A DNA stretch of 64,000 bases from positions 1 through 64,000 of the forward strand of contig JANQSF010000134.1 in the NCBI GenBank assembly GCA_028284155.1, given 5' to 3'. Source of the stretch: Phycisphaeraceae bacterium. GTDB lineage: Bacteria > Planctomycetota > Phycisphaerae > Phycisphaerales > Phycisphaeraceae. Shown here in pieces: positions 10,539 through 43,669 of the stretch. The notes below the pieces were generated by a model that saw nothing but the letters and a program-made list of their open reading frames with translations, did not search any database and was not told the origin of the DNA. The position numbers were made by a program, and so were the translations under genes. Positions within the stretch are counted from its first letter, which is position 1. The number at the start of each line of letters is the position of its first letter.

Positions 10539-11722
10539 GCCCCCGTCCCCAGTCGTTCCCAGAGTTGCGATACCTTCTGTTCAAGGAATTGCCGCGGCTC
10601 TTCGTCGGTGACCCACTGCGACCTGGCCGACAGCACACCCACACGGTCGCGCAGGAAATGCCTGTCGTGCTCAGGCAGTTCGTCGTCTTGTTCGAGCCGT
10701 GCGGCAATGTCGTTCAGTTCGCGCGCGATCGCCTCCGCGTCCGGCGCGTCGGTCCCCATCGCACGCGGGTGCTTGCGTACGTCGTCGGCCGACTCGTCCG
10801 CCGCCAGTGCGTTGTCGACGATCTCGCCGATCACTTCCTGCTGCTCGCGCGTGTCCCAGATGAACCGCATCACCCACATGTCGCTGGGCGCAGCCCGCAT
10901 CCGGCCGCACAGCAACGCGCTGGCCGCGATCAGCCGTTGCAGCTTTACCGCACGGCGATCCGAAATCGCAATCCCCGCGTGACGCAATCGGTGGACCAAC
11001 TGGACATACGGCCCGCGCACGTCTTCCAGCTCGACCGCGTGGATCAATCGGTGCAACCGTTCGACCTCCTCGATGCGCAGCGTGACCTCGTCCGGCCCGG
11101 TGCCGCGCTCGATCTGCCAGCCGGCATCCAGCACGTCGCGCAAACGTTCTTCTTCGACGTTGTCGCAGACGACGCGCAGCAGGAACCGGTCGAACAACGC
11201 GCCCAGCGCGTCGTCGTCCGGCAGGCGGTTGCTCGCCCCGACCGTCATCAGCAGCGGCAGTTGACGTGTCTCCCGCCCGCGCCGAAAGACGCGCTCGTTC
11301 AAGACCATCAACAAGCTGTTGAGGATCGCGCTGTTGGCGTTGAGCAACTCGTCCAGAAACACGAACGACGCCTCGGGCAACATGCCCTCGGTGTTGGTCG
11401 TCAGCTCGCCGTCGCGCAGCTTGCGGATATCGAACGGGCCGAACAGTTCGTTCGGCTCGGTGAAGCTGGTCAGCAGGTAGTCGAACGCCGTGCCGTCGAA
11501 CCGCCGGGCCAGGTCGTGTACGAGCGCGCTCTTGGCCGTGCCGGGCGGACCGAGGATGAAGAGGTTCTCACGCCCGATTAACGACACGCCCAACAGGTCG
11601 ATGACTTCGTCCTTACCGACGAACCGGCGTTTCATGGGTTCGAGCACGTCGCGCGCGATGCGCAGGCCGACCTCGGCCCCGGACGACACTTCCGTTTGCG
11701 TTTCAGTCTGATGCAGATTCAT
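10535..11722 (-). CDS. MoxR-family AAA+ ATPase
   Basis: AAA+ ATPase of 395 residues. Residues about 15-300 are the ATPase core: Walker A GPPGTAKS (58-65), Walker B VFLDE (121-125) followed by LLNANSAILNSLLMVLNER, sensor-1 asparagine in TVGASNRLPDD (N165), and an arginine finger candidate in LFDRF (R179). A helical C-terminal part includes an acidic coiled region and an LEQKVSQLWERL tail. MoxR proteins act with von Willebrand A partners as chaperone-like remodelling machines. Here the vWA partner is two genes downstream. The start overlaps the end of the preceding gene by 20 bases and the stop overlaps the next start (ATGA). The family is certain. The specific subgroup (ternary conflict system) is inferred from the neighbours. 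Confidence 0.95.
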   Translation of the reverse strand: MNLHQTETQTEVSSGAEVGLRIARDVLEPMKRRFVGKDEVIDLLGVSLIGRENLFILGPPGTAKSALVHDLARRFDGTAFDYLLTSFTEPNELFGPFDIRKLRDGELTTNTEGMLPEASFVFLDELLNANSAILNSLLMVLNERVFRRGRETRQLPLLMTVGASNRLPDDDALGALFDRFLLRVVCDNVEEERLRDVLDAGWQIERGTGPDEVTLRIEEVERLHRLIHAVELEDVRGPYVQLVHRLRHAGIAISDRRAVKLQRLIAASALLCGRMRAAPSDMWVMRFIWDTREQQEVIGEIVDNALAADESADDVRKHPRAMGTDAPDAEAIARELNDIAARLEQDDELPEHDRHFLRDRVGVLSARSQWVTDEEPRQFLEQKVSQLWERLGTGA

Positions 11723-16885: not shown

Positions 16886-18478
16886 TTATTCAGCGTAGAC
16901 CTCCAATTCCGTGATCCCCATTTGAGTACCCTTCTGGTTCGGCCCATCGGGCTTGACTGCTTCAACTTCAACGAATCGGATGTCTGACGCCTCGAATCGA
17001 ATCTCGACAGGGCTGCCGTCGCCGGCATCGGACTGGAATAGCTCACGCCAGACCTTGCGATCATTTCCGGCACGGACGATGAAATGGGTTGGGTAGTTGT
17101 CCCTGTGAAACTGGATTCTGACTCTTGAGCAGTTTTCCTCTCGGAGTAGGTCAACAAAGAATTTCCACGACCATTGATTGGACGCCTGGGCTCTCGTGTT
17201 CATGTCCCCGTCGATACCGTTGCCCGCGACATCGATGTGCCGGCCGGCGGGCAGAAGCGTCGACGTCTGATCCGGTCCACCACCCCTGGCGTCCTTCGGT
17301 CGACTCACCAACCGGGCGCGGCGCTTGTACGCCAGATTGCCCGCGGGCACTACCCTGCCACCTGTCCGAGCCTTCCATTGCTCGTAACGTGAAGAACGAT
17401 CGCGTACCTGGGCGTCGAATAGCTTGAGCGGCTGGAGGAATGCAGTCTTCAATGTACCATCGCTCTCGAAGGGAACGTCCCAAGTAAACAGACACCCTTG
17501 CTCGGTGAAGTTGTCTGCGATGGTTCGCAATTGATCGTCGCGAAAACGCGGCTCATTTCCTGTACCGAAGTTGCTTCCAAGTGCGCTGAAGACGTGATTC
17601 TGAACCACCCTGTCCTGAAATGGCCCCGTTACGAAAGATCGGTTGGGATGCCTCACCTCGCCACTTATGAAGTCCTCTTGTGGGGGCGGCAGGTTGCGTA
17701 GTTTGATATAGGCGTGATTGAAGGATACGACGGCCTTCTTGTTCCCCGATTTCGCTGCGGTCAAGAAGCTGTCCCAGTTCGGGGCGTTCTTGTAAGAGAG
17801 CTGTCCAAACCAACAGCCGTCGAACCACCAACCCGATACCAGATCTCCCCATCGCAACGAATACTCCCGTACGACGCGCTCCCAATGCGCCGCGAAGATA
17901 CGCCAACCCTCATCCGATGAGATCACGTGACCGTCCCGTGAGTGCTTCTGCCCGATCGGTCGTAGCACGCCCACCGCCTCGCCGTCACCACGAATCGGGG
18001 GCTCAACGGCCAAATACACGATCATCGGGATACTGCGCTTCTTGAGCGCTTTGCCCAGATCGAGAATGAGGTCACGTTTCGGGAACCAGGTCGTCTGCTT
18101 GTTTCGACCGAGTATCTCGTCGTAGGTCGCGTTAGGCGACAGGAAATACCCACCGCACTGCGACAGCGTGATTAGAAAGTAGCCGGCTCCGGACGCTTTG
18201 ACTTGTTCGGCCAGCGTTTCAACATCGAAGTTCTCCACGCGCTCGTTCCACTGCGCTGGCGCAAGACGTCGGCGTGGATCAATCTGTTCCCGGATGTAAT
18301 GCATTGAAATCCCCCATTTCGCGTCGCGCATCCACGCGGTCCGAGCGATGCGGGCCGCATCATGCTTACCGGTCGTGGACTGCGCACCGGTATCGCGTGA
18401 CGCGATAGGGAGACTCGGGAGCATGACGAGAGTCAGCAGCAGACTGGGTGACATCAATCCCCATCGAGGGTGATTCAT
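16886..18478 (-). CDS. Exported GH29-like (alpha-L-fucosidase-type) protein with C-terminal F5/8-type C domain
   Basis: A 530-residue secreted protein. The ATG at 18478 has an AGGAGA ribosome site 8 bases upstream and is followed by a signal peptide. The catalytic-like part (about 45-400) resembles family GH29: WMRDAKWGISMHY matches the 'W.DAKFG.F.H' opening, and NFDVETLAEQVKASGAGYFLIT the following strand with Y.L.T. The C-terminal part (about 410-530) has the jelly-roll pattern of a discoidin-like carbohydrate-binding domain (NGIDGDMNTRAQ, WKFFVDLLREENCSRVRIQF, ITELEVYAE). It probably removes fucosyl or related groups from a polysaccharide. The active-site aspartate could not be assigned by eye, so activity is tentative. 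The codons are visibly less G+C-rich than flanking core genes. The next gene ends 30 bases upstream. Confidence 0.8.
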   Translation of the reverse strand: MNHPRWGLMSPSLLLTLVMLPSLPIASRDTGAQSTTGKHDAARIARTAWMRDAKWGISMHYIREQIDPRRRLAPAQWNERVENFDVETLAEQVKASGAGYFLITLSQCGGYFLSPNATYDEILGRNKQTTWFPKRDLILDLGKALKKRSIPMIVYLAVEPPIRGDGEAVGVLRPIGQKHSRDGHVISSDEGWRIFAAHWERVVREYSLRWGDLVSGWWFDGCWFGQLSYKNAPNWDSFLTAAKSGNKKAVVSFNHAYIKLRNLPPPQEDFISGEVRHPNRSFVTGPFQDRVVQNHVFSALGSNFGTGNEPRFRDDQLRTIADNFTEQGCLFTWDVPFESDGTLKTAFLQPLKLFDAQVRDRSSRYEQWKARTGGRVVPAGNLAYKRRARLVSRPKDARGGGPDQTSTLLPAGRHIDVAGNGIDGDMNTRAQASNQWSWKFFVDLLREENCSRVRIQFHRDNYPTHFIVRAGNDRKVWRELFQSDAGDGSPVEIRFEASDIRFVEVEAVKPDGPNQKGTQMGITELEVYAE

Positions 18479-18507
18479 GATGTATTCTCCTAAGAGCCAC
18501 ACGCGAC

Positions 18508-27100: not shown

Positions 27101-30100
27101 CTACCTTTCCTGCGGGTCTTTCAAGCTGATCGCGCGCTGGTCGGCCCCTAGCACGCGTACGTCCCCCAACTCCGCGCGGATCGCCTCGGCCTGCTTCAGC
27201 AAACGCGCTACCACTTCGGGGTGTTGTTTGGCGACGTTGCGTTTCTCGCCCAGGTCGCGCTTGAGGTTGAACAAGACGGGTTGATCGAGTGTGACGAAGC
27301 CCTTCTTCTTGCTCGGCTTCTTGGACCAGAACGGCTGATCCTTGGTCGTCCGCGGCAGGTGCAGTTTCCAGTCGCCTTCCCGCACCGCCTGCAGGTTCGT
27401 ACCGTTGTAATAATAAAGATGTTGGTGCGGCGATGTGGACGACTTGCCTTGCAGGATGGGGAAGATGTTCCGGCCGTCGATCTTGCGGTCGGTCGGTGGG
27501 GTGACGCCGGCGAGGTGGCAGAACAGGGGCAACAGGTCCATGCTGGTCAGCGTGACGTCGGACACCCGGCCGGCCGGGATGCGGCCCGGCCAACGGAAGA
27601 GGCCGGGCACGCGGTGGCCGCCTTCCATTGTGCAATACTTTCCGCCGTTGAGGCCGGCGGTGGAGCCGGTCGCCGTCGGGCCGTTGTCGGACGTGAACAC
27701 GACGAGCGTGTTGTCGTCGAGGCCGGCGTCGCGCAGCGCTTGCATGATTCGGCCGGTGCTGTGGTCGAGTTCTTTGATGAAGTCGCCGTACCGGCCCGTG
27801 CCTGAGCTTCCGACAAACTCCTTGCGGGGCAGCAGTGGCGTGTGCACGATGTGGTGCGAGACGTAGATAAAGAACGGCTCGTCCTTTCGTCGCTCGATGA
27901 ACGCGACGACCTCGTCGGTGTATCGCTTGGTCAATGCTTCGCAAGGCACGTTGCGTTGCTCGACCTGTTTGCCGCGGTATAGCGTGTTGTGATTCGGGCC
28001 GCGTGCTCTTGAGTAGTTGCTCGGGATGCCCAGGTGTTCGTCGAAGCCGGCGTCGATCGGGTGCGAGCCTTCGACCTCCATGCCCATATGCCACTTGCCG
28101 ACCATCAGCGACCGGTAGCCTGCCGACTTGAGCAGTTCGGGGATGGTGATTTCGTCGGGCGCGAAACCATAACGGTTGTACTTGCCGAACCCCTCATTCC
28201 GCGCGACGGGCATGCCGCATCGCATCGGGTATCGACCGGTCAGCAGCGCGGCACGCGACGGGCTGCACACGTTGGCGGGCACGAAGAAGTCGGTGCTGCG
28301 GAACCCCTGCGCCGCCAGCGCGTCGAGGTTCGGCGTTTGGGTGGCGCTGGGTCGGTAGCAACTGAGGTCGCCGAAACCCAGATCGTCGGCGAAGATGACA
28401 ATGAAGTTTGGCTTCGTCGCAGCGGCACGAGACGATGTTGACTGAGAAGGCGCTGGTGCTGATGGCGTTGCGGCCGGCGACTTCGCCGAACGCTTCGACA
28501 GCGGCTTCGGATTCTCGACGAACGCGGCCGGCCTGCTGTTGTCGGCGATGTCTTTTGCAAACGCCTTCAGGTATCCGTTGAGTCGCTGTACGACTTGTGG
28601 ATTCGCGTGAATGACGTTCTTCTTCTCGCCAATGTCGCTCTGAAGGTCGTAGAGCTGCGCGGGCTTACCTCGATTCGTATGGAGTTTCCACTTCCCGGAC
28701 CTTACCGCGGTCAACTGGTCGCCGCGGTGGTAGAAGAACGCTTCGTGCGGTGTCGGCGCGTCGCCGACAAGGGTCGGCCAGATGTCCTTGCCATCGATGA
28801 CCCGGTCAGTCGGGATCGCCGCGCCGGCCAGCTTCGCAAAGGTTGGCAGCAGATCCATGGCGGTCATGATTTCATCGTTGGGCCTGCCCGCCGGGATCTT
28901 GCCCGGCCAGCGCACGACGGTGGGCTCGCGCATGCCGCCTTCAAACGTGCTGCCTTTCCGCCCTTTGAGTGGTCCGGCGCTTCCGATGGCTGGCCCGTTG
29001 TCGGAGAAGAAGATGACGAGTGTGTGTTCATCGATGCCATGTTCTTTCAGCGTGTCCAGAATCTGTCCGACGGACCAGTCGATCTCATTGATGGCCTGAC
29101 GGAAGAGCCGGTCTCGTGTTTTGTAATCAATTGAGCCGCCTTCCTTCTTCAGCTTGTCAGTAATCTCCGATGCCACACCCTTCATGAACCCGGGCGAGAC
29201 ATGGAGTGGCTTGTGCGGGATGGGATGCGGGATGTATACAAAGAACGGCACATCCCTGTTCCGCTCAACAAACTGAATGGCGCGTTCGGTGATGCGTTTC
29301 GTTAGGAAGTCGGCATCCGGTTCCATCTCGATAACCGAGTCATTCTCGAGCAGGGGCAGCGGCGGGAACTTGTAGTGACTCTGCCTCGGATGAAACGGGT
29401 GAATGTCGTGGCTGTATGGAATGCCGAAGAACTCGTCGAAGCCTTGCTTCGTGGGCAAAAACTCGGGTTGATCACCGAGGTGCCACTTGCCGAACATGCC
29501 GGTTCTGTAGCCGGCCGACTTCAGCACCTCGGCAATCGTGATTTCCTTTGGGTTCAGCCCCTTGCGGTCACCGGCAAGCAGGACGCCGAAGTTGGAACCC
29601 CTCGCCATGCCAACCCGTTTGGGGTAGCACCCGGTCATCAACGCGGCGCGCGAAGGTGTGCAAACCGGGGCGGCCACATAAAAGCTGGTCAGCCGGGCGC
29701 CTTCCCGCGCCATCTTGTCGATGCGCGGGGTGCTGACATGCTTGCCGCCGAAGCAACCAAGGTCTCCGTAGCCCTGGTCGTCTGTGACAATCACGACGAA
29801 ACTCGGGCGGCGTGTCGGCTTGTGGCCGGTCGGCGCGTTGCGCGACTCGCGTGGCTTCGTTTCAGTGCGCGGCTTGGCGACGGGCAACTCGTCCAGCACT
29901 TCGGCATCAAACTGGAAATCGTCGAGCGTGATATGTCCCCAGCCGGTTGTCGATTGATCGACGACCTTAAGGAACAGCTTCTTGCCGGCATAAGGCGTCA
30001 GGTCCCAGCCGGCCAATTGCATCACCTGCGAGTTCATCCCGCGCGCTTTGTGCAGTTCCTTGCCGTCTGCCTGACACAAAGCGACGTAGGTATCTCGGCC

Positions 30101-31996
30101 GCCCCCACCGCCGACGCGGAAGGTCATTCGGCCGGGCTTGGCGACGAACAACGGGGAGACGATCACGCCGGCCTGCTTGTCCTGGCCTTTGGCTGCGTTA
30201 GGGCCGGCTTCGAGCGTGGTCAGGTAATACTTGCCCTGCTTGTTGTATTGCCCCTTGTTGTGGAAGAAGCTTTCTCGGCTGCCGATGACGTGGCTGAACT
30301 TGCCTTCAACGACCTTCCACGGCGCTAGCTTGCCTAATTCAAAATCAAACGACGCGCTACGCTTACTCCGGGTCGCGGGCGTTCTTGGAGCGGGATTGCC
30401 CGGGTTTAGGTTTCTTCGATTAGTCGGTCCACTCCCGGCAACGGGCTGCCGCTTGTAGCGCGCAAGCAACGCGGTCATTTCTTTAACGACATCGGGATGC
30501 TCACGGTATACGTTCCTTGTCTGATTGACGTCACTCTCCAGATCGTAGAGCTGCGCGGGTGGGGCATTCTTTTTGATCTTGCCGTTCTCGATGTCGCTGT
30601 TCACCGAACCGACGAACGTCGCGGCCGGCGGGCCGGCGAAGGTATGACTGCTGGGCGTCCTGCCGCCGAACCCGCCGCTGCCCTGCTTGGGGATGAACAT
30701 CCACTTGCCCTTGCGCACGGACAGGTGCGTACCTTTGTTTGGCGCGAGGACCAGGTGGTCGCGGATTGGTGTCTCGGGCTGGCCGACAAGGGCGGGCAGC
30801 ATGTTAACGCTGTCAACGGCATGGCTCTTTTCGACCGTCTGTCCCGTGATCGCGGCAATCGTGGCAAAGAGATCCACGCCGCTGATCAACTGATCTGAAG
30901 TGCTGCCGGCTTTGACTTTGCCCGGCCACTTGGCAATGAACGGCACACGGTGGCCGCCTTCCCACACGCCAAACTTGAACCCGATCAGGTCGCCGTTGAT
31001 CCGGTGGCCCGCCTTGAAAGCGGCCTGCCCGCCGTAATTGAACATGCCGCCGTTGTCACTGGTGAAGATCACCAGCGTGTTGTCACTCAGACCTTCGTCT
31101 TCGAGGCACTGGAGAATCTCCCCGACCATCCAGTCGAGCTCATGGATGAAGTCTCCGTAGAGCCCGCATTGGCTCGTGCCCTGGAAACGCTTGGCCGGCG
31201 TGAAAGGGTGATGAATATTGGTTGTCGCCAGGTACAGAAAGAACGGTTTGTCCTTGCGTGCCTTGATCCACTCCACCGACTTCTTGGCGAACGTCGTGCC
31301 GACCTGATAGTCATTGAAGAGCTTGTGCGCTTCCTTCGCGCCGCCGAACGCATTGCGACTGCGGTTCGCCGCCTCCGGCGGAATGGGCGTGATCGGCGTG
31401 GCGCCCTTCGCGTTCCTGCCCAGGTACACCAGCGGATCAGCGGGGTCACCGCCTAGGACACGATCGTTCTCGACGTAGACATAAGGCGGCGCGCTGTTGA
31501 CAACGGGCATGCCAAAGTAGTAATCAAAGCCGAGGTCCTGCGGCCCGGGACGCAACGGCTCCTGCCAGTTGTTTCGTCCGGTCTTGAATCCCAGATGCCA
31601 CTTGCCAATCACCGCCGTGTCGTAGCCACTGCTCTTAAACACATCGGCAATCGTGCGCTTCGTGGTATCGATCAAAAGCCCAGACGTGATCGGCGCCGGC
31701 CCCCACAAGCCCCGACCGCCATTCGCCCGCAACGGGTACTCGCCGGTGAGCAGCCCGTACCGTGACGGCGTGCAAACTGCTGATGCAGAGTGCGCATCCG
31801 TGAATCGCCGCCCCTCCTTGGCAAGTCGATCGATGTTTGGCGTCTTGACCTTTGTTGCGCCGTAGCAGCCCAGATCGCCGTATCCGAGGTCGTCGGCGAA
31901 GATGAGCACGACGTTGGGCCGGGCGGCCAATGAAAACGACCCCATGAACGCAACGAGCGACGCAACCAGCACGCAGGTTTTCGGGGATGTGTCCAT
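27101..31996 (-). CDS. Triple-sulfatase fusion protein with an internal jelly-roll domain
   Basis: A single uninterrupted frame of 1631 residues with one signal peptide (start ATG 31996, AAAGGA upstream) carries three complete sulfatase domains. Domain 1 (about 25-515): ADDLGYGD, C75-T-P-S-R, GKWHLG, TSDNGGM. A Gly/Asn-poor linker leads to a beta-sandwich (about 548-698: FDFELGKLAPWKVVEGKF, ITLDDFQFDAEV) of the sort appended to GH32 and other planctomycete secreted hydrolases. Domain 2 (about 730-1150): VTDDQGYGD, C779-T-P-S-R, GKWHLG, FSDNGPA. A Ser/Pro/Ala-rich linker leads to domain 3 (about 1195-1615): ADDLGFGD, C1244-S-P-S-R, GKWHMG, TSDNGPT. Each has its own formylglycine site, so up to three sulfate esterases are tethered together. 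This may speed processive desulfation. Or it may be a concatenated operon whose parts are cut apart after export. Confidence 0.93.
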   Translation of the reverse strand: MDTSPKTCVLVASLVAFMGSFSLAARPNVVLIFADDLGYGDLGCYGATKVKTPNIDRLAKEGRRFTDAHSASAVCTPSRYGLLTGEYPLRANGGRGLWGPAPITSGLLIDTTKRTIADVFKSSGYDTAVIGKWHLGFKTGRNNWQEPLRPGPQDLGFDYYFGMPVVNSAPPYVYVENDRVLGGDPADPLVYLGRNAKGATPITPIPPEAANRSRNAFGGAKEAHKLFNDYQVGTTFAKKSVEWIKARKDKPFFLYLATTNIHHPFTPAKRFQGTSQCGLYGDFIHELDWMVGEILQCLEDEGLSDNTLVIFTSDNGGMFNYGGQAAFKAGHRINGDLIGFKFGVWEGGHRVPFIAKWPGKVKAGSTSDQLISGVDLFATIAAITGQTVEKSHAVDSVNMLPALVGQPETPIRDHLVLAPNKGTHLSVRKGKWMFIPKQGSGGFGGRTPSSHTFAGPPAATFVGSVNSDIENGKIKKNAPPAQLYDLESDVNQTRNVYREHPDVVKEMTALLARYKRQPVAGSGPTNRRNLNPGNPAPRTPATRSKRSASFDFELGKLAPWKVVEGKFSHVIGSRESFFHNKGQYNKQGKYYLTTLEAGPNAAKGQDKQAGVIVSPLFVAKPGRMTFRVGGGGGRDTYVALCQADGKELHKARGMNSQVMQLAGWDLTPYAGKKLFLKVVDQSTTGWGHITLDDFQFDAEVLDELPVAKPRTETKPRESRNAPTGHKPTRRPSFVVIVTDDQGYGDLGCFGGKHVSTPRIDKMAREGARLTSFYVAAPVCTPSRAALMTGCYPKRVGMARGSNFGVLLAGDRKGLNPKEITIAEVLKSAGYRTGMFGKWHLGDQPEFLPTKQGFDEFFGIPYSHDIHPFHPRQSHYKFPPLPLLENDSVIEMEPDADFLTKRITERAIQFVERNRDVPFFVYIPHPIPHKPLHVSPGFMKGVASEITDKLKKEGGSIDYKTRDRLFRQAINEIDWSVGQILDTLKEHGIDEHTLVIFFSDNGPAIGSAGPLKGRKGSTFEGGMREPTVVRWPGKIPAGRPNDEIMTAMDLLPTFAKLAGAAIPTDRVIDGKDIWPTLVGDAPTPHEAFFYHRGDQLTAVRSGKWKLHTNRGKPAQLYDLQSDIGEKKNVIHANPQVVQRLNGYLKAFAKDIADNSRPAAFVENPKPLSKRSAKSPAATPSAPAPSQSTSSRAAATKPNFIVIFADDLGFGDLSCYRPSATQTPNLDALAAQGFRSTDFFVPANVCSPSRAALLTGRYPMRCGMPVARNEGFGKYNRYGFAPDEITIPELLKSAGYRSLMVGKWHMGMEVEGSHPIDAGFDEHLGIPSNYSRARGPNHNTLYRGKQVEQRNVPCEALTKRYTDEVVAFIERRKDEPFFIYVSHHIVHTPLLPRKEFVGSSGTGRYGDFIKELDHSTGRIMQALRDAGLDDNTLVVFTSDNGPTATGSTAGLNGGKYCTMEGGHRVPGLFRWPGRIPAGRVSDVTLTSMDLLPLFCHLAGVTPPTDRKIDGRNIFPILQGKSSTSPHQHLYYYNGTNLQAVREGDWKLHLPRTTKDQPFWSKKPSKKKGFVTLDQPVLFNLKRDLGEKRNVAKQHPEVVARLLKQAEAIRAELGDVRVLGADQRAISLKDPQER

Positions 31997-33825: not shown

Positions 33826-35835
33826 CTATGGCCGCCGCGTGTGCTTCCTGATGAAGGAGAGAACGGCGTCTACGTTCTCGGTCGTCCCGTGCTTGTGCCC
33901 CTTGTCTTCCACGATTACGGTGATATCGCCACCGAGCGCTTTGTACCGCCTTGCAAGAACGGCATCGTTCTCCTCATAGGGAACGGCATGATCATTCTTG
34001 CCGCAGACACTCAGGATCGGGATACCTGCCTTCGCTAAAGGCTGGAGCATGTGGATAGGGCTACCCTTGGTTTTGAAGTATTTGACGGCCTCTTCGAAGG
34101 ACTCGAAGCCGTAGGGTTTCAGATACATCTCGAATGAAGCCTTCGATCCGGGGCCGGTATAGCCTAAATGCCCCGCGTAAGGCTTACCCGCAGGCCAACT
34201 AAGCGCATCAGCACACGCGTTGTCCATAAAGATGCTTTCGATCTGTTCGGGATAGGCCGAGGCATAGGTGAAGACCATGAAGCCGCCCCGACTCATCGCC
34301 GCCGCCGAGAAGGTCTTCGAGAACCCGTGCTCGGTGGTCAGGTAGTCATAAGCCGTCTTCACGTTCGAGTTGCCACTTGGGTGCCCGGTCACGTTGCCAT
34401 ATACCACGACGACGTGGTAGCCCTCCGCAACGAGTTTGAGGTCCGTGTCGTTAAATCGGCCGATGGACGTCCAGAAGATGTTGCGCCAAAGCCAGGGCTT
34501 GCCCGGGGCGGCTTTCTCAGGCGCCACGACCTGCACCGTGATGTCTCTGCCAGACTCCTTGTTCTTCAATCTGAACTGATACTTGTCGTATCCCTTGAAC
34601 TCTGCTCTTGCGCCAGGGAAGAGCATTTCGGGCTGCTCGGTGCCTTCGGTCGCCAATGCCAGCTCAATCGAATCAAACCATTGCTTGCCCATCACCGCAT
34701 TGCCCGCACCGTTGGGGTGTAGGTTGTCGGGCCGCATGTTGACTTCGTAGTTGGCATCAAGCGCTTTGAACTGATCGACAAAGTAGATGTTCCTGCCCGC
34801 TGCCCTGTACTCCGTCACAAGCTGCTGAATAGCTTCATTAAAGATGATGACATCGGTTCTTTGCGCTTCCTTGCGTCGGTTGGGCGGGATCGATGCGACA
34901 AAGACCCTCGGCTTACCAACGCCCTTCAGCGCGTAGATCTGATCGAGCATTGCCTTGAGTCGCCCCGGCGTCCCGTCGATCTCACCACGGCCGATGTCGT
35001 TTGTACCCAGCATGATGCAGATGGTTCGGGGCTTCACCGTTGCAAGACGCCCCTGGTCCCAGATGGCCTTCAGACGATCAGTCATCCCAGCAATCCTGAT
35101 TCCCGATATACCCGAGTGGTAGTGATAGAGGTTGGCAGCCGGTGCGGATTCAGTATCGGCAAGCCCATCAACATTGGGCGCGTGGTGGCCTGTAAAGGAA
35201 AACGCATAGCCTTCCTTCTTCAACAGGTCGTAAAGCGCCTTACGCGGAGAGCCTTTGTCGTCCCCGTCGGCATTGCTCTGAGTAATCGAATCCCCGATGA
35301 ACCAGATCGGTCCGAGATCCTTTTGCATGAAAACGATCTTCTTCGACTGGGGCACGTTCTCCTTGGAAAAGACCAACTGTCTTCTGCCGTCCAGGATCTT
35401 GAGTGTGAAGCCGTCCAGCCGAGCGGCGGCCTTGCCGTCACGGTTGTAGACGATGATCTTTTCGATCTCGACGTTCTTGCCAAGATTGACCTCCCACCAC
35501 GGGTCTGATTCACGCTCCGTGTGAGTCGTCGACTTGTCGCGATACTCGCCGGATCGCCCGCCATCGACTGCGCGCCCGGCAACAGCACCGCTTCCTCCAT
35601 TGCCCAAAACGCTGGACTGAGTGGCTTTCTTGCTCAGCGCAACATTCTTCCCCTTGGCATACACCTCGACTTCGGCCAGCGACAGAACGCGATTCCTCCC
35701 TGGAAGCTCAATACGGACAATCTGCCCCCTAACGGCCGGTAATGCCAACGGACGATCCGCACGAACGGCTCCTGCCAGGAGCATCAAGCCAAATGCAAAG
35801 ACCAGCGTCCTCATCTTTATCATCGCGTTATTCAT
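33826..35835 (-). CDS. Three-module exported protein: F5/8-type C, SGNH hydrolase, alpha/beta-hydrolase
   Basis: A 669-residue multidomain esterase. After a signal peptide, residues about 33-160 form a discoidin-like carbohydrate-binding domain (RIELPGRNRVLSLAEVEVY, ATQSSV, DPWWEVNLG). Residues about 175-395 are an SGNH hydrolase with FIGDSITQ (Ser183), MLGTNDIG and D370-N-L-H373. Residues about 410-669 are an alpha/beta-hydrolase with nucleophile in AMSRGG (Ser515), acid in GKNDHAVPYEEN and base in DKGHKHG. It probably removes two kinds of acyl ester from a carbohydrate. It shares the outer two modules with the giant protein downstream. The start could be one of three close ATGs (35835, 35823, 35814). 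Confidence 0.85.
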   Translation of the reverse strand: MNNAMIKMRTLVFAFGLMLLAGAVRADRPLALPAVRGQIVRIELPGRNRVLSLAEVEVYAKGKNVALSKKATQSSVLGNGGSGAVAGRAVDGGRSGEYRDKSTTHTERESDPWWEVNLGKNVEIEKIIVYNRDGKAAARLDGFTLKILDGRRQLVFSKENVPQSKKIVFMQKDLGPIWFIGDSITQSNADGDDKGSPRKALYDLLKKEGYAFSFTGHHAPNVDGLADTESAPAANLYHYHSGISGIRIAGMTDRLKAIWDQGRLATVKPRTICIMLGTNDIGRGEIDGTPGRLKAMLDQIYALKGVGKPRVFVASIPPNRRKEAQRTDVIIFNEAIQQLVTEYRAAGRNIYFVDQFKALDANYEVNMRPDNLHPNGAGNAVMGKQWFDSIELALATEGTEQPEMLFPGARAEFKGYDKYQFRLKNKESGRDITVQVVAPEKAAPGKPWLWRNIFWTSIGRFNDTDLKLVAEGYHVVVVYGNVTGHPSGNSNVKTAYDYLTTEHGFSKTFSAAAMSRGGFMVFTYASAYPEQIESIFMDNACADALSWPAGKPYAGHLGYTGPGSKASFEMYLKPYGFESFEEAVKYFKTKGSPIHMLQPLAKAGIPILSVCGKNDHAVPYEENDAVLARRYKALGGDITVIVEDKGHKHGTTENVDAVLSFIRKHTRRP

Positions 35836-35933: not shown

Positions 35934-38900
35934 CTATTCCTTAAACGACAAAGTCACTTTGTCCAGGATCGGTTGGGACGGGTTTTCGGTTGTATCTGTG
36001 AGTTTCACTTCGAACTGGAAGCCGTATCCTTCCGGCAGTTTGGACAACTCCAGCTTCGCCGGGGTTTTGGCGACCTGCTTGGAATACCCCTTGACGTAGT
36101 CGTATCTCTCCTTGACTGTTGTCCATGCCGTCCACTTGTCTACTTTCCGATCGTTGTCAGTGTCCACGCCGACTCGCACTTCGACATCCTCAACCCATGG
36201 GCCGGGGCTGACGAAATCCGTCCGCTGTTGCGTTGCCAGATAAAACTTGCCCTCGGCGAACATCACATCCGGATCGGGATGGCCCCGGCCAATCTCGCCA
36301 CAGAACGTAAACGGTTTGTCAATGCTGGAAGAGGTGAACCAACCGACACGAATGTCACCCTTTGCCGGATGGTAATCCGAAAAGAGATAGTGTTGCCCAC
36401 CGATACTGATTGCGGCCCAGTCACCGTAGGCGTTTTGCACCGGGTCATGGATTTCATACTTGGCAAACGCCCGTATATCTCCGGCTTTGATCGCGTGTTG
36501 AGGGATATCAACCGGAGCGGGTTTTCCAGGGTACTTCTTTGGCTCTGTCGCGTGCCAATGGGGGTGGGGATACTCGGCAAATCTGCCGGTCGGCTTCGTT
36601 CGATCATCAACCGCCGGAGGCAGAATCCTGAAATTCGCAATACCATCCCGGCTTACCGCATGCCCGGCGAGGGGCGAATCCCAGGAATGCTTGCTCGCGT
36701 CGATCGGGCTCCAGTCTTCATAGATGACATGGAAGTTGCCTTTGAGATCCCGGATAACGGCGCAATCCGAACCGTGTGATGGGTCCTTGAATGCGATGCC
36801 CATGTTCTTGCCCGGGGCGCCATCCGTGAGATCGTCGTCGATGTAGAGATGTGGATCCTGATCGTTTGGATAGTCGTAATAGATGTAGACTTTTCCATCG
36901 ACGTATTCAGCGGTGGTCACCCAGCATGAGAAGGCTTCGGTGACCGGCCCATGGTGCACCCAATTGATCGTGTCTTTGCTCTGCCATGCGTGATATCCGC
37001 CGAGTCCTTCTTTCAAACCACCGGGCGCATCGTATTGATTGGGAAAAGGAGTGGTCTGCAAAGGGACGTCGTAGCCGTTCAACTGAGCAGCTTCAGGCTT
37101 GAAGTCCTTCTTCCGTCTCGAACCATAACGCCCAAACATCCAATAATTGCCTGGGCCGATTCTCAGCATGACAGGCGCGTCGCCCAAATTGGACGGCCCA
37201 ATGTTCGGAATTGGCATCCAGTTATGCCAGACGGGCGATTGAGCGATCGTGATCGACTTCGCAGAGCGTCTCTTGTCATACGTCATCACCGTGCTTTGAA
37301 ACGTTGCTCGTTTTGCCGTTGGCGAGGCGAACCCGCCTTGGAACTCAAGATTGGAGTGATTTGCGGCAGCCATCTGCCATTCTCTCTGGCTATCGATGAC
37401 CCATTCCTGCCCCGATGAAGGAGTTGATGACTGCTTCTTTGAAGTACGCGTGTGCTTCTTGATGAAGTGAAGCACGGGCGTCGGGTCTTTCATGCCGTGT
37501 GAGTGACCCTTGTTCTCGAAGATTACCTTGATGGGACCGCCCAGCGCCTTGTAGCGCTGCTCCATGATTGCGTCGTTTTCTTCATAGGGAACTGCTTTGT
37601 CCTTGTTTCCGCACACCATCAGAATCGGGACGCCGGCTTTGGCCAGCGGCTCCAACCAGTCGATCGGGCTGATCTTTGCCGCGAGTGCTTGTTCGTCGGT
37701 CGCAAAACCGTACGCCTTCTTCATGTGCTCCCAAGACTGGGGGGCGCCGGAGGCGATGGAACCGCTGCCTCTGACCAATTTGCCGGCCGGCCAACTCTTG
37801 ACGTTGCAGACACCGTTGTCGACGTAGATGCTCTCGACCTTTTCAGGATTGGCGGACGCCCAACGGAAAAGCTGCAAGGTCACACGGCTCATGGATGCCA
37901 TCGAGCACTTCTTCGAGAATCCATACTCTGTCGTCAGCAGGTTGTAGGCGGCGTCGATATTGGCGTTACCGCGCGGGTGGCCAGATATGTCGCCACTGAC
38001 GAGAACCACGTGGTAGCCCTGCTCGACCAATGTGAGGTCGGCCTCGTGCACGCGCGCGATTGCTTTCCAGAACATGCCGCGCCACAGCCAGGGCTTGCCC
38101 GGTGCGGCTTTCTTCGGGCAGATGACTTCGACGCCGACACGACCGATCCTGAATTGATAACTGTCAAAACCCTTGAAGGTTCCCTTCTTACCCGGCAAAG
38201 ACCGTGACCTGATCAGGCCGATGGCCTTATCCGCAAGGCGTTGACCAAAGATGTGGTAGCCGTCTGTGGTGTAGTGGACATCATTCCGTGTCTGACCCGT
38301 CCTGGAATCAGTCACATTGTTGAGGTCATCCGTGTCGACCCATGCACGGAGTCGGTCGGCATCCGCGTAGGCGACCTGCAGTTCGCGCATTGCTTGCCAT
38401 TCCGGGTGTTTGCCCGAATCCAAACTGTAATCACTGAGTCGCCCGAGAACGAAGTGAATGTCGTCCCGCTTCAAATCTCGCTTCAACTGATTCAGCAGTT
38501 TGTCCAGACTGGCCGTGTAGACACCTGTCTGATTTCTTGACGCATCGTGTTCGCCCTGCATCCAGAGCAACGTCACCGTCTCAATCTCGCGGCCGGCGAT
38601 GGCGTCCGTCGCCTTGGCGATCAACCTCTTATAGAGATCGCCACTTGGGTTTGCGGGCACTCCCTTGACCGACACCCAGCCCTTGACCCAACGGCTAATG
38701 GGCTGGCCGCTATGCGCATCCTTAACGACAATCACGGACTCTGCCCCAAATGCCCTGGTCACCGCCGGCGTAAATGAGATGTCAGGATCCAGCCGATGCA
38801 TGTTTGACTGCCCGGCAAGCAGGAAGAGATGAGCGCCTTGTGTGGCCGTTCCACTGTCTGAAGCGCCATTACTTTCCTTGCGCTCATTCGCAGCCTTGAC

Positions 38901-41153
38901 GATTCGGGAGGGTTTTACGCCTGGCTGCAAAAACGAAATGATTGCGGCTTCCGGAATCTTGTCTTTGGAGAAAACCACCTTTCGTTTCGCGTCGAGAATC
39001 TTGAGCGTGAAGCTGTCCAAACGGCGCCAACCACCGTCCGTCCGGTTGTAGATGACGATCTGTTCAATGTTCGCCATCAGACCGAGGTCCACTTCCCACC
39101 AGGGATCGGCTCTATTCAACTCCGTGTGCGTGACGGATCCACTGTGATAGTCGCCGTCCGCATCGCCATCCACCGCACGTGCGGGTGTGCCACCAAATGC
39201 AATCGTTGACTGCGTCGCCTTTTTCTTTAGTGCCAGGTTCCTTCCGCTTTCAAAAACCTCGACCTCGGCAAGAGACAGCGTGCGATTCTGTCCCGGCAAT
39301 TCGATACGAATGAATTGTCCGCGTACGGCCGGAATCTTCATCGATCTGGTCGGCGCCAATTTGAGTTTGCCTGCTTTGTGCTTGACTGCTTTTCCTGGTG
39401 ATTTGGTGACCGGTTCTTCAATCGAGTAGGCAGTCGCCGCAGCATGTGCTTTGATCCGAACTTCCTGCACCCCCCACACCTTACCGTTGATTTGGAGCTG
39501 AGCCTCCATGAAACCCGTACCCTTCGCCAGTTCGACATTTTCCAGCACCACATGTGCCGGAAGTTGGTCAAAAGTCTTCTCTGCCGTCTTTCCCTGCCAG
39601 ATGAATTTCAGGGTGGCCGCCTTCCCGTGATGTTGGCGGTGCGGCAGAATCGTGATATCGAAGCGATCGATCAGCCCGGGGTTGTTCACCCGCCAGCGTC
39701 CGTAATCTGTGGGCCGCCAACCTGTGTTCTCTCCCCACCAGTCCTGCCAGGTAAAGCGGAAGTCGTGCTTTTGAATCGGGTTGAGCTCGATCGGATGAGG
39801 CATACCCTTTTCGCGCCGTAGTTCTGCGGTGACGTCGTCAAACCACGCTTCGTATTCTCGGACGAAGGCCTTCACCTTGTCCGGATGCTGAGCCGCCAGG
39901 TCTTGCTTCTCACCGGGGTCCTGCTCGATGTTGTAGAGTTCAAAACCTTCACGATTTCCCCTGTTGCCCACCGCTTTCCACGGGCCGTTGCGCACCATGC
40001 CATTCTTGTACTTGGTCGGAAGGTTTCCGCGATTGTGCTGCATGAAGAGGTAGCGTGCGGGAAGTTCCTTCACTGCACCAGTCAGCAAGGGGAGGATGCT
40101 TGTCCCATCCACTTTCAGGTTGGCGGGCAATTGGATGCCACACGCTTCGGCAAGCGTCGGCAGCAGGTCGATGTGCATGGCCGGGTCACTTAACTTCCGC
40201 CCGCCCTTCATTCCCTTTGGCCATTGGATGACGAACGGAGAACGGATGCCGTTCTCATAGACACTGCCCTTCTTTGCGCGCAGACCGGCCGTGTAGTAAA
40301 CGGAATTCGGGCCGTTGTCGGTCATGAAGATGATGATGGTATTGTCCTTGAGCCCCATCTTGTCCACCGCGTCGAGCAAGCGTTGGAATGCGCCGTCGAA
40401 CTGCGTGATCATGCCATAGATCGGCGCCACCCAATTCCGCCCGTCGGGGTCCTTGAGGTTCTGCTTGTCATAGCCTTCGCGAAACGCCTTGCCCACATCG
40501 AACGGCGAATGCGGGATGTTGAGCGGGATGTAGCAGAAGAACGGCTTACTTCGACTGTTCTCAATAAAACGGATGGACTCGTCAATGAAGACGTCAGTGC
40601 AATACCCTTTCGCCTTCTTGAAGGTGTCGTTATAGAGAAGCGCGGGGTCCCAGTAGCTGTTCTTCGGATAGTCGGCGAACTGACCGATGCCTCCGCCGCC
40701 ATGCACGACGGCTTTCTGGAATCCCTGGTCAATGGCCCGCATCGGGTAGTTCTCACCGAGATGCCACTTGCCGAAGATGCCCGTGCGATAACCCGCGCTG
40801 GCGAAGACCTCCGCCATGGTCGTTTCCTGCGGGTTCATGTTGGAACGCCCGATGTAGGTGTCATGCGCCCCCGTACGGAAGTGATAGCGCCCGGTCATCA
40901 GGGATGATCGCGTGGGCGTGCACATGGGCGAGACGTAGAAGTGGGTCAGCTCCGTCCCCTCGGCGGCAAAGCGATCGAGGTTGGGAGTCTTGATGGTCTT
41001 GTTCCCATGGAAACCGACTTCCCCCCAACCTTGGTCGTCGGTCATGATGAGGATGACGTTGGGCTTCGTCGTGTCAGCAATCGCGGCAGTCGCGAGAACG
41101 ACGCTCCATACCGCACACACGGACATCGCAGGTAAGTAGTTTCGCATTTGCAT
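35934..41153 (-). CDS. Giant five-module protein: sulfatase, F5/8-type C, SASA esterase, alpha/beta-hydrolase, GH43-like propeller
   Basis: One continuous frame of 1739 residues. Signal peptide to about residue 27. Sulfatase about 28-450 with TDDQGW, C78-T-P-T-R (variant of CxPSR), GKWHLG and MTDNGPN, plus its usual C-terminal beta domain to about 575. F5/8-type C domain about 605-745 (IRIELPGQNRTLSLAEVEVF, DPWWEVDLG). SASA-type acetylesterase about 772-985 with LLAGQSNM (Ser783), LLWMQGEHD and D964-G-Y-H967. Alpha/beta-hydrolase about 995-1235 with MASMSRV, GNKDKAVPYEEN and NKGHSHG. A C-terminal region about 1250-1739 has five-bladed-propeller-like repeats typical of GH43-type glycosidases, with a beta domain at the very end. 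The architecture suggests a self-contained polysaccharide-degrading machine. The GH43-like call is tentative. Confidence 0.88.
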   Translation of the reverse strand: MQMRNYLPAMSVCAVWSVVLATAAIADTTKPNVILIMTDDQGWGEVGFHGNKTIKTPNLDRFAAEGTELTHFYVSPMCTPTRSSLMTGRYHFRTGAHDTYIGRSNMNPQETTMAEVFASAGYRTGIFGKWHLGENYPMRAIDQGFQKAVVHGGGGIGQFADYPKNSYWDPALLYNDTFKKAKGYCTDVFIDESIRFIENSRSKPFFCYIPLNIPHSPFDVGKAFREGYDKQNLKDPDGRNWVAPIYGMITQFDGAFQRLLDAVDKMGLKDNTIIIFMTDNGPNSVYYTAGLRAKKGSVYENGIRSPFVIQWPKGMKGGRKLSDPAMHIDLLPTLAEACGIQLPANLKVDGTSILPLLTGAVKELPARYLFMQHNRGNLPTKYKNGMVRNGPWKAVGNRGNREGFELYNIEQDPGEKQDLAAQHPDKVKAFVREYEAWFDDVTAELRREKGMPHPIELNPIQKHDFRFTWQDWWGENTGWRPTDYGRWRVNNPGLIDRFDITILPHRQHHGKAATLKFIWQGKTAEKTFDQLPAHVVLENVELAKGTGFMEAQLQINGKVWGVQEVRIKAHAAATAYSIEEPVTKSPGKAVKHKAGKLKLAPTRSMKIPAVRGQFIRIELPGQNRTLSLAEVEVFESGRNLALKKKATQSTIAFGGTPARAVDGDADGDYHSGSVTHTELNRADPWWEVDLGLMANIEQIVIYNRTDGGWRRLDSFTLKILDAKRKVVFSKDKIPEAAIISFLQPGVKPSRIVKAANERKESNGASDSGTATQGAHLFLLAGQSNMHRLDPDISFTPAVTRAFGAESVIVVKDAHSGQPISRWVKGWVSVKGVPANPSGDLYKRLIAKATDAIAGREIETVTLLWMQGEHDASRNQTGVYTASLDKLLNQLKRDLKRDDIHFVLGRLSDYSLDSGKHPEWQAMRELQVAYADADRLRAWVDTDDLNNVTDSRTGQTRNDVHYTTDGYHIFGQRLADKAIGLIRSRSLPGKKGTFKGFDSYQFRIGRVGVEVICPKKAAPGKPWLWRGMFWKAIARVHEADLTLVEQGYHVVLVSGDISGHPRGNANIDAAYNLLTTEYGFSKKCSMASMSRVTLQLFRWASANPEKVESIYVDNGVCNVKSWPAGKLVRGSGSIASGAPQSWEHMKKAYGFATDEQALAAKISPIDWLEPLAKAGVPILMVCGNKDKAVPYEENDAIMEQRYKALGGPIKVIFENKGHSHGMKDPTPVLHFIKKHTRTSKKQSSTPSSGQEWVIDSQREWQMAAANHSNLEFQGGFASPTAKRATFQSTVMTYDKRRSAKSITIAQSPVWHNWMPIPNIGPSNLGDAPVMLRIGPGNYWMFGRYGSRRKKDFKPEAAQLNGYDVPLQTTPFPNQYDAPGGLKEGLGGYHAWQSKDTINWVHHGPVTEAFSCWVTTAEYVDGKVYIYYDYPNDQDPHLYIDDDLTDGAPGKNMGIAFKDPSHGSDCAVIRDLKGNFHVIYEDWSPIDASKHSWDSPLAGHAVSRDGIANFRILPPAVDDRTKPTGRFAEYPHPHWHATEPKKYPGKPAPVDIPQHAIKAGDIRAFAKYEIHDPVQNAYGDWAAISIGGQHYLFSDYHPAKGDIRVGWFTSSSIDKPFTFCGEIGRGHPDPDVMFAEGKFYLATQQRTDFVSPGPWVEDVEVRVGVDTDNDRKVDKWTAWTTVKERYDYVKGYSKQVAKTPAKLELSKLPEGYGFQFEVKLTDTTENPSQPILDKVTLSFKE

Positions 41154-41156
41154 GAC

Positions 41157-42524
41157 TCAGTAATTCAGCGTTCCGCCACGGACGGGCTTCTGTCGATCAG
41201 TCTTCCACCAGTGGTCGGGGCCTTCGGACTCGATGGCCTTCCAGACCTCCATTAGTCGTTTCTTCATCTGTTCAGCCTTCTCCGGCAACTTCGCGGCGAG
41301 GTCGTTCTGTTCTTTCCAGTCTTTCTGGATCTCATAGAGCTGGAACTTTGTCAGTGTCTCGTTGCCGACGATCTTCCAGTTGTCAACGCGCATCGCCACA
41401 CGGTCATTGGGCTGCGAAACGTGTGTGCGCCAGAACAACGGGACCTTCCGCTGGACCGCCTTGCCCGCGAAGGCGGGGACCATGCTCACGCCGTCGATGG
41501 TGCGATCTGTTGGAAGCGGGATGCCGGTGATGTCGAGCACGGTGGTGAAGATGTCCGTCCCGATCACGGGGACGTCGCTGGTCGTACCAGGTTTGATTCG
41601 GCCGGGCCAACGTGCCACGCCGGGCACGCGGATACCGCCCTCGTGATCACTACGCTTTCCGCCGCGAAGCCCGCCGGTGGTCCCGCCGAAACGGGCGACC
41701 GGGCCGTTGTCCGAAGTGAAGATGACCAGCGTGTTGTTGGTTACGCCCTCGGCGTCCAGCGCCTTCATCACCATGCCCAATGCATGGTCGAGCTGCGTGA
41801 TGTTGCCCATGTACTTGCTGTTCACGTGGCCGTCGTAGAGGCCTGCGAAGCGCGGATCGGTCGCGATTGGCGAGTGCGGCTCGTGGAACCAGACGGACAG
41901 CGCAAACGGCTTGGACTTGTCACGCATCTTGCTGAGCCACCGCGCCGCCTCGGCCGCGACTATCGGAGCGGAGTAGCCGTTCAGTTGGCCGACCGGCTCA
42001 CCGTTGCGGACGAAGTTGTCAGGGTTCTTGTGGCTGGGGCTTGCGTTGTTGTGCGTCGCGAACCAGTAGTCGTATCCGTGGTCACCGGGTTGCGGAAACT
42101 TGGCAGTGTTGAATTGCGGCCGCGAGTTGAGGTGCCACTTGCCGACGTGACACGTCTCGTACCCGATCTTCTTCAGTAGCGTCGGATACGTGATCTCACT
42201 GGCGCGCAGGTGGGCTTCGTGATTCCCCGACAGGTGTCGCCAGACGCCGTTGCGATACGGCGTGCGACCCGTGAGGATCGCGGAGCGCGACGGCGAACAG
42301 ACGCCGGCAGCCGAATAGCATTGCGTGAACTTCACGCCCTGAGCCGCGAGCTTGTCGAGGTTGGGCGTCTTGATTAACGGGTGCCCGTAGGTCGCCGAGT
42401 CCCCCCAGCCCATGTCGTCGGCGAGGACGACCACGATGTTGGGACGAGCAGGTTCAGCCGCCCCCGCGTGCGGTGACAGCAGCGCGATCGCCAACAACAA
42501 TGAGGCGCAAAAGCGTGTGGTCAT
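41157..42524 (-). CDS. Secreted type I sulfatase
   Basis: A 455-residue sulfatase with signal peptide (MTTRFCASLLLAIALLSPHAGA). Motifs: NIVVVLADDMGWGDS, C76-S-P-S-R (VCSPSRSAILTGR), VGKWHLN with Asn after the histidine, FTSDNGPVA, and ELVY-like tail QLYEIQKDWKEQNDL. Its ATG overlaps the stop of the GHL15-type gene (ATGA at 42521-42524), so the glycoside-hydrolase-like protein and this sulfatase are translationally coupled. They probably act on the same sugar. Specific substrate unknown. Confidence 0.94.
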   Translation of the reverse strand: MTTRFCASLLLAIALLSPHAGAAEPARPNIVVVLADDMGWGDSATYGHPLIKTPNLDKLAAQGVKFTQCYSAAGVCSPSRSAILTGRTPYRNGVWRHLSGNHEAHLRASEITYPTLLKKIGYETCHVGKWHLNSRPQFNTAKFPQPGDHGYDYWFATHNNASPSHKNPDNFVRNGEPVGQLNGYSAPIVAAEAARWLSKMRDKSKPFALSVWFHEPHSPIATDPRFAGLYDGHVNSKYMGNITQLDHALGMVMKALDAEGVTNNTLVIFTSDNGPVARFGGTTGGLRGGKRSDHEGGIRVPGVARWPGRIKPGTTSDVPVIGTDIFTTVLDITGIPLPTDRTIDGVSMVPAFAGKAVQRKVPLFWRTHVSQPNDRVAMRVDNWKIVGNETLTKFQLYEIQKDWKEQNDLAAKLPEKAEQMKKRLMEVWKAIESEGPDHWWKTDRQKPVRGGTLNY

Positions 42525-43669
42525 GGCTTGGGTTTCCAGTCGATCCGCGCGGTGCGGGCTTCAAGGTCAACGAAGACCGACGCGTGGGCGAAGTCGCGCG
42601 TGTAGGTCCAGCCATCGCGTTTCGCATCACCCTTGGGCGGGCCCAGCGGCTTGTCGAACTCCGCGTACCAGTCAAATGTACCGTGCTTCTCCCGGTAGCC
42701 CCACGTGTAGCAGAGGTAGCTGTACTTCTGCGCCGCCACCAGGTAACAGGCGAGCGGGAACGTGATGCGCTGTTTCGCCAGACGTGCCAGTTCTTTCTGC
42801 GGCTTTCTCATCATTTCGGACTCCCGAAACGAGAAGCCTGGCCAGGCCTTGATCAGCACAATCTTACCGTCGCGGCCGACCGCCTGAATCGTTTCAATCG
42901 CCTCGGCGATCGCTTCCTTGCTCGACCCGTGGTTGAAGTGGCCAAAGTGCTCGATCATCGATCCGTCAGCGACACGCAATAAGTTGTCACGGTTCTCCCG
43001 CATCAGCCCGTTATAAAGAATCAGCTTGTCGGGCCCGATCTTACGTCGGGTCTCTTGCAGCATGGCGTGCCGGGCGGCGCGCAGGTCGAGGACGGTCTTC
43101 TCGGTGAGCGTCTTCTTGTTGGCCACCGGCGGGTCGCCCATCGCGTCGGAGAAGATACCGTCCGCCCCGTACTCGCGCACGGCCGTCGCCGCCACGTCCG
43201 ACCACCAGTCACGGACATCGGCCCGCCGCTGGTCGTAGTTGGAAACCGTTCTGCGCCTCAGGACGGGCTTGCCGTCTTCGTCTTTGAGATAGGCACCGGC
43301 CGGGAGTGTCTTCGTCGCCTTGTACCCCCAACGGGCGGTCGAGGTGTCCAGCGACGCGTTCCAGTAGAACAACACCTTCGCGTCGGGGTTGCGCTTCTTG
43401 ATCTCCCGGATCGCCACGACGAACCCGTCCTCCGTGTTGCCATGCTTGAGTGCGGCCTGGCCCTTTTCGATCGTGATGAAATTGAAACGCTTGGCGAGGA
43501 AGTCCAGTTCGCCGTCAGTGAAATCGTCCGAAGCCTTGCCAACGTGGGCATACACGGGCACGCGATCCCAACTGAACGCCGGCATTGCATCATTGGCATG
43601 CAGAGCGGGCGCGGACATGAACACCAGACACGCGATAAAGACGATTGAAGTGAATAAGGTTCTAGTCAT
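42521..43669 (-). CDS. Exported GHL15-like putative glycoside hydrolase
   Basis: A 382-residue exported protein (signal peptide MTRTLFTSIVFIACLVFMSAPALHA). The body looks like a TIM-barrel of the hypothetical glycosyl hydrolase family 15 (GHL15): WDRVPVYAHVGKAS, DFLAKRFNFITIEKGQ, DAKVLFYWNASLD, EYGADGIFSDAMGD, DKLILYNGLMREN, YLCYTWGYREKHGTFDW. The conserved acidic residues in GIFSDAM (Asp) and after IEHFGHF are candidate catalytic residues. Translationally coupled to the sulfatase that follows. The family is known mainly from sulfatase-rich marine bacteria. The exact reaction is not established, so hydrolysis is an inference from fold and context. Confidence 0.82.
   Translation of the reverse strand: MTRTLFTSIVFIACLVFMSAPALHANDAMPAFSWDRVPVYAHVGKASDDFTDGELDFLAKRFNFITIEKGQAALKHGNTEDGFVVAIREIKKRNPDAKVLFYWNASLDTSTARWGYKATKTLPAGAYLKDEDGKPVLRRRTVSNYDQRRADVRDWWSDVAATAVREYGADGIFSDAMGDPPVANKKTLTEKTVLDLRAARHAMLQETRRKIGPDKLILYNGLMRENRDNLLRVADGSMIEHFGHFNHGSSKEAIAEAIETIQAVGRDGKIVLIKAWPGFSFRESEMMRKPQKELARLAKQRITFPLACYLVAAQKYSYLCYTWGYREKHGTFDWYAEFDKPLGPPKGDAKRDGWTYTRDFAHASVFVDLEARTARIDWKPKP

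Follow-up and report, generated by a model that had tools for sequence, protein, structure and literature searches.

One planctomycete reading frame joins an S1 sulfatase, an F-type lectin, two esterase-type modules and a GH43-like propeller

What is gained when a sulfatase, a lectin, two esterase-type modules and a predicted glycosidase are carried by one polypeptide, and on which substrate would such a protein act? The question is raised by a gene in a 64,000-nucleotide stretch of DNA from a Phycisphaeraceae bacterium (contig JANQSF010000134.1, positions 1 to 64,000, referred to as the window). A preliminary description made from the sequence alone had reported a single 1739-residue frame with at least five modules for the attack on a sulfated, acylated polysaccharide. 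The frame was recovered at exactly these coordinates (Table 1); it opens with ATG and its 1739 codons translate without a single internal stop. The N-terminus of the protein is a signal-peptide-like stretch, MQMRNYLPAMSVCAVWSVVLATAAIA. In every module the GC content at codon position three is higher than at positions one and two (0.61–0.76), and the same is true of the neighbouring genes.

The module order is S1 sulfatase, F-type lectin, SASA esterase, alpha/beta hydrolase (ABH) and propeller. When the protein was searched against Pfam, we obtained matches to Sulfatase at residues 31–340, to F5/8 type C at 646–723 (E 4e-12) and to SASA at 788–978, together with a weak alpha/beta-hydrolase trace at 1143–1196; there was no Pfam match at 1240–1739. 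For the stretches that Pfam left without a clear assignment, 986–1240 and 1240–1739, the identity came from AF2 structure prediction. Between them, Pfam, phmmer and AF2 recover all five modules that had been claimed, including the propeller.

Table 1. Coordinates of the large gene, its modules and neighbours in the window, and of related fusion proteins in other genomes
Feature	Location	Strand	Length or residues	Description
Whole gene	35934..41153	-	1739 aa	ATG start; hydrophobic signal-peptide-like segment aa 1-26
S1 sulfatase domain	39819..41063	-	aa 31-445	Pfam PF00884 E 9e-55, PF16347
S1 C-terminal extension	39429..39818	-	aa 446-575	Without own Pfam family
F-type lectin (fucolectin, F5/8 type C-like)	38919..39341	-	aa ~605-745	phmmer
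SASA (SGNH-fold) carbohydrate esterase	38199..38831	-	aa ~775-985	PF03629 E 5e-25
Alpha/beta hydrolase (ABH)	37434..38198	-	aa 986-1240	AF2 pLDDT 92.4
Val1091 (GTG), nucleophile +2 of ABH	37881..37883	-	aa 1091	Alignment
GH43-like five-bladed propeller	35937..37406	-	aa ~1250-1739	AF2 pLDDT 93.1
Next gene downstream	33826..35835	-		F-type lectin, SGNH (GDSL) esterase, ABH
S1 sulfatase gene	41157..42524	-		Ends 3 bases upstream of large gene
GHL15 family glycoside-hydrolase-like gene	42521..43669	-		Overlaps start of S1 gene 41157..42524
Weak GH29-like gene	16886..18502	-		With F5/8C domain; only GH29 match found in genome; divergent
Neorhodopirellula pilleata fusion	L039		1792 aa	GH141-like helix, PDZ, F5/8-like, ABH, propeller
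Planctomycetaceae MAG fusion	L041		1744 aa	GH141-like helix, PDZ, F5/8-like, ABH, propeller
Verrucomicrobiales MAG fusion	L040:2308-10494		2729 aa	ThuA, SGNH, DUF7133, HEAT, cupredoxin, ABH, second ThuA-like, propeller
Propeller fusion (G272)	L164:223-4764		1514 aa	DUF4450, long stretch without Pfam family, propeller
N. pilleata S1-GH29 protein	L161:7132-10602		1157 aa	S1 and GH29 alpha-L-fucosidase (PF01120 E 4e-88)

The S1 domain reaches 186.6 bits against PF00884 (cut-off 25) and carries the formylglycine-type motif CTPTR with Cys78; the motif residues Asp39/Asp40, Lys129/His131, His215 and Asp279/Asn280 are kept as well, the pairs at 39–40 and 279–280 as metal-binding positions. The closest sulfatase that we found is the S1-GH29 protein of N. 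pilleata, which is 70% identical over residues 9–574. Since this identity runs up to residue 574, the extension at 446–575 can be counted as part of the sulfatase, and the boundary is corroborated by the N. pilleata protein, which changes domain at the same point. Among solved structures, 6bia, 6prm and 6b0j are nearest, followed by 9fo1, and the nearest chains include iota- and kappa-carrageenan sulfatases. The separate S1 gene just upstream and the large gene probably belong to the same transcript. In the whole genome there are 111 sulfatase matches and seven matches over the cut-off to PF03781, which are candidates for the sulfatase maturation enzyme, although this family also includes non-FGE proteins. 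Two FGE-type matches at G000:C134:231365-234601 fall in a frame with a listed length of 2009 aa. The window also contains a gene of 1631 aa whose single frame encodes three sulfatase domains (27101–31996, minus strand); a strict formylglycine-motif pattern is found in domains two and three and is absent from the first. It also holds the genes of a MoxR-vWA-beta-propeller ternary system (bpX0-bpX3 and bpMoxR; 4362–11722, minus strand) and encodes planctomycete cytochrome families, which would fit Planctomycetota as the origin.

The sugar (fucose)-binding motif of F-type lectins reads H...R-x-D-x4-R/K, with a classic H-to-R spacing of 26. In phmmer searches the lectin module matched FBP32 (3cqo, E 1e-32), the fucolectin-related 2j1r (5e-22) and 1k12 (3e-9), and its signature H676..R704-x-D706-x4-R711 is present, the H-to-R spacing being one residue longer than the classic one. 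The SASA module scores 88.8 bits against PF03629 (cut-off 24.8), and by motif alignment its catalytic motifs are intact (GQSN with Ser783, QGE at 866–868 and Asp958-x-His960). The next gene downstream is paralogous to the central part of the large protein, with 51% identity in the lectin and 56% in the ABH. Another F-type-lectin match, at G000:C154:17589-17864, lies in a frame listed as 6212 aa.

The ABH was modelled by AF2 from an alignment of 27 sequences. The best fold match of the model is an S9 carboxypeptidase (Z 21.0, rmsd 2.7, 225 residues aligned), and S-formylglutathione hydrolases and carbohydrate esterases follow at Z about 19. The triad Ser1089, Asp1185 and His1219 is invariant in all 27 rows of the alignment. 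The residue two positions after the nucleophile, expected to be small in an alpha/beta-hydrolase esterase, is Val1091 here and Gly in 25 of 26 homologues, the sole exception being a Glu in L100. Judged from the alignment, this ABH copy may be weak or inactive through Val1091.

For the C-terminal region, structure prediction returned the five-bladed propeller of GH43 type that had been proposed (42 sequences, pLDDT 93.1, pTM 0.91). GH43 came first in both Foldseek and VIA, where 5a8c aligned over 233 residues (Z 21.0, rmsd 3.6), and the fold neighbours after GH43 were levanases, GH159, mannan phosphorylases and a GalNAc deacetylase. The blade starts Asp1325, Glu1416, Asp1463, Asp1578 and His1625 are invariant or nearly so in the 42-member alignment. 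By register with the Pfam GH43 matches of the family, Asp1325 and Asp1463 would fit the GH43 base and pKa modulator, and the position of the acid Glu appears to be occupied by Asp1578. The module shares with GH43-type five-bladed propeller glycosidases (5a8c, 4nov) the predicted fold and an Asp where blades one and three begin, but it differs from them in a sequence below the GH43 threshold, in an apparent Asp instead of a Glu at the acid position and in additional beta extensions that flank the propeller, with some 70 residues on the N-terminal side and 85 on the C-terminal side. The propeller of the 1739-aa protein gave no match in the Pfam GH43 search; 30 of the 42 family members gave weak ones, which, among the matches listed, scored at most 29.0 bits against a cut-off of 32.2.

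Because Asp1578 appears to replace the acid Glu and the structural neighbours include a deacetylase and phosphorylases, the type of reaction is not fixed by the fold. The propeller could be a metal-dependent deacetylase, or another enzyme on the same fold, rather than a glycosidase. The GalNAc deacetylase structures 6n1a and 6n1b (Z 19.3) trail the best GH43 rows by less than 2, and the invariant His and Asp residues as well as the apparent Asp at the acid position would suit such an activity. However, the top rows of the fold search are GH43 (Z 20–21) and weak GH43 matches occur in most of the family, and we regard a non-glycosidase as quite improbable.

Neither Pfam nor NCBIfam contains a model dedicated to the propeller family. 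The PDB, searched with a profile and with single sequences, gave no match to the propeller, nor did PHROGs; no homologue was found in plasmid records and no description of the family in a literature search. A scan of one genome collection identified 131 stretches that encode it, and 80 of these were retained. The hosts belong to Planctomycetota, Verrucomicrobiota, Kiritimatiellota, Lentisphaerota and Bacteroidota, and many are marine by name; in the organism's own class, the propeller occurs in only five of the 397 genomes drawn. Nearly all homologues are stand-alone proteins of about 490–560 aa, typically with a signal-peptide-like start of their own. One propeller paralogue, G000:C42, has a 195-residue N-terminal addition that probably reflects a start called too early, since a signal-peptide-like segment follows it. 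The fucoidan lyase FdlA was considered as a relative of the propeller and set aside, as it has a beta-helix fold (PMC9410043).

The preliminary description had itself pointed to an assembly fusion of several genes as what could undo it. In three further genomes a single frame encodes both ABH and propeller, each time with N-terminal partners different from those here. In N. pilleata and the Planctomycetaceae MAG, the ABH-propeller cassette is 73–77% identical to the one described here and the linker between the two domains is recognisably homologous; in the Verrucomicrobiales MAG, a ThuA domain is inserted between ABH and propeller. Because this joint recurs, because the next gene repeats the order lectin-SGNH-ABH, and because the propeller within the fusion lacks the signal-peptide-like start found on its stand-alone homologues, it is very unlikely that the modules were joined by chance or by the assembly. 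The genome is a draft of 161 contigs, which leaves some room for an assembly or annotation artefact joining several genes; with a stop-free frame and the same joint in independent genomes, we consider this hardly credible. The S1/lectin joint is the only one for which we did not find an independent copy, and the complete five-module order was seen, among the genomes searched, in this genome only.

In this genome and among its relatives, fused genes are common. The four fused propellers, which come from two phyla, form one clade in the propeller tree (support 100/99), which suggests a single origin of the ABH-propeller fusion followed by horizontal spread. The ABH tree speaks neither for nor against a single origin. 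Stand-alone ABH genes also occur near stand-alone propeller genes (L087, L100). In Pontiellaceae, a very large gene encoding a GH141-like helix, PDZ and a CE2_N-like stretch (L046:4688-8797) lies directly upstream of a stand-alone propeller gene, an unfused counterpart of the 1792-aa N. pilleata protein; a very large gene takes the same position in L044:4154-8500. An apparent S1-propeller fusion in the Verrucomicrobiales MAG (G778:C52, listed as a 1717-aa frame) was rejected, since about 30 stops lie in the span and the genes are separate.

The modules suggest how the protein could work. The fucolectin would anchor it to a deoxyhexose-rich, fucan-like chain, the S1 domain would strip a sulfate ester, and SASA, perhaps with the ABH, would take off O-acyl groups, in each case as judged from family, fold or motif. 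The GH43-like propeller would then cleave the exposed glycosidic bond, most likely with inversion as in its fold relatives. Our preferred reading, which we place slightly on the probable side, is therefore a single secreted polypeptide that would remove sulfate and acyl groups in succession and then cleave glycosidic bonds in a sulfated, O-acylated fucan-like chain, built from neighbouring genes: the genes of one degradation cluster would have fused into one protein, with an ABH-propeller cassette common to Planctomycetota and Verrucomicrobiota and N-terminal partners that were exchanged.

It is also possible that gene fusion in the PVC bacteria is simply lax, that the modules are tethered for secretion or co-expression and not by the proximity of their target bonds, and that the ABH is a decayed passenger. 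The valine after the ABH nucleophile and the triple-sulfatase gene in the same window would fit this explanation, as would the joining of ABH and propeller to ThuA and DUF7133, which have no obvious tie to sulfate removal. However, the catalytic motifs of the other modules are kept, and the partner families are also found as neighbouring genes, so that we judge lax fusion to be rather unlikely. That sulfate, ester and glycosidic linkage are neighbours on a single substrate, as had been proposed from the sequence, is plausible, a view tempered by the possible impairment of the ABH and by how common fused genes are in these bacteria.

With somewhat more confidence than the mechanism as a whole, we take the substrate of the 1739-aa protein to be fucan-like. 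Fucan is favoured over ulvan or carrageenan because of the kinship of the modules, namely the fucolectin with its intact motif, the close S1-GH29 relative and the GH29 and GH141-like neighbours of the propeller family. At distances of up to about 9 kb from the propeller gene, S1-like genes were found at 60 of 80 loci, GH29 sequences 71–84% identical to the N. pilleata fucosidase at 15, and GH141-like sequences at 13, two of which are the N. pilleata and Planctomycetaceae fusions themselves. Among 90 immediate neighbours, counted by direction and distance and without a random control, there were 36 sulfatases, six GH29, seven BD-FAE and three SASA genes. Growth on fucoidan is on record for Pontiella strains (PMC6388578), which belong to a family that has the propeller gene. 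GH141 includes endo-fucanases, and acetylated fucoidan is cut less well than deacetylated (PMC12786026); as acetylated fucoidan is the poorer GH141 substrate, esterases would be useful. At its C-terminus, the S1-GH29 protein of N. pilleata carries a truncated version of the F5/8-like domain located ahead of ABH and propeller in the 1792-aa fusion of the same species; this S1-GH29 protein is apparently the remnant of a longer fusion.

Multistep action could be right and the substrate another sulfated, acylated glycan, such as a sulfated galactan, a rhamnan or an exopolysaccharide of microbes or diatoms. No GH95 match and a single weak GH29-like gene were found in the genome, which is 95.7% complete, so that a full fucan pathway is not visible. 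The GH141-like module of N. pilleata gave no match in it. Several of the nearest solved sulfatases act on carrageenan, and homologues of the S1 domain are very broad. Given the module kinship set out above, we consider another glycan the less likely reading.

Fusions of a sulfatase with a glycosidase are known. P36 of Formosa agariphila combines an S1_25 sulfatase (structure 6hr5) with a GH78 rhamnosidase for consecutive steps on ulvan oligomers (PMC8511951). It shares with our protein the joining of a sulfatase to a glycosidase, here a predicted one, consecutive action being an established feature of P36, but it has two catalytic modules, a rhamnosidase in place of the propeller, ulvan as substrate and neither esterases nor a fucolectin. 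S1_15-GH29 fusions have been reported from Pontiella F1 (PDESU_05015) and Rhodopirellula rubra (RRSWK_03833) (PMC6388578); like the S1-GH29 protein of N. pilleata, these are PVC sulfatases fused to a glycosidase, with GH29 where our protein has lectin, SASA, ABH and propeller. The N. pilleata and Planctomycetaceae fusions share the C-terminal cassette, and there a GH141-like beta-helix and PDZ replace sulfatase, fucolectin and SASA. As gene context, the parts of the published account on which we draw describe PUL-7 of Verrucomicrobiota as a fucose-degrading cluster with a GH29 pair, S1_15 and PF03629 (SASA) proteins; sulfatase and SASA thus occur together as here, but in separate genes, and those parts mention no propeller (PMC8857213). 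The assertion that no characterised enzyme has this combination held for all that was searched, whereas the sulfatase-glycosidase fusion as such is already published. As far as we searched, the five-module order, the presence of two esterases and a fucolectin in one chain, and the ABH-propeller cassette shared with swapped partners are new.

Fucans withstand degradation and store marine carbon (PMC12786026), and little is understood so far about which enzymes open acylated sulfated fucan chains. As natural tags, the fusions tie an unclassified propeller family to sulfatases, esterases, GH29 and GH141-like proteins, and they provide targets for biochemistry. We suggest tentatively, and at somewhat less than even confidence, that the propeller founds an uncatalogued carbohydrate-active family for sulfated, acylated fucans, and that ABH and propeller together make up a mobile esterase-glycosidase unit which marine bacteria attach to varied desulfating or fucan-cutting N-termini. 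Further tests would be best spent on the uncatalogued propeller family. Since parts of the protein reappear beside other partners in further marine bacteria, the whole looks like a genuine, swappable toolkit for stripping sulfated seaweed-type polysaccharides.
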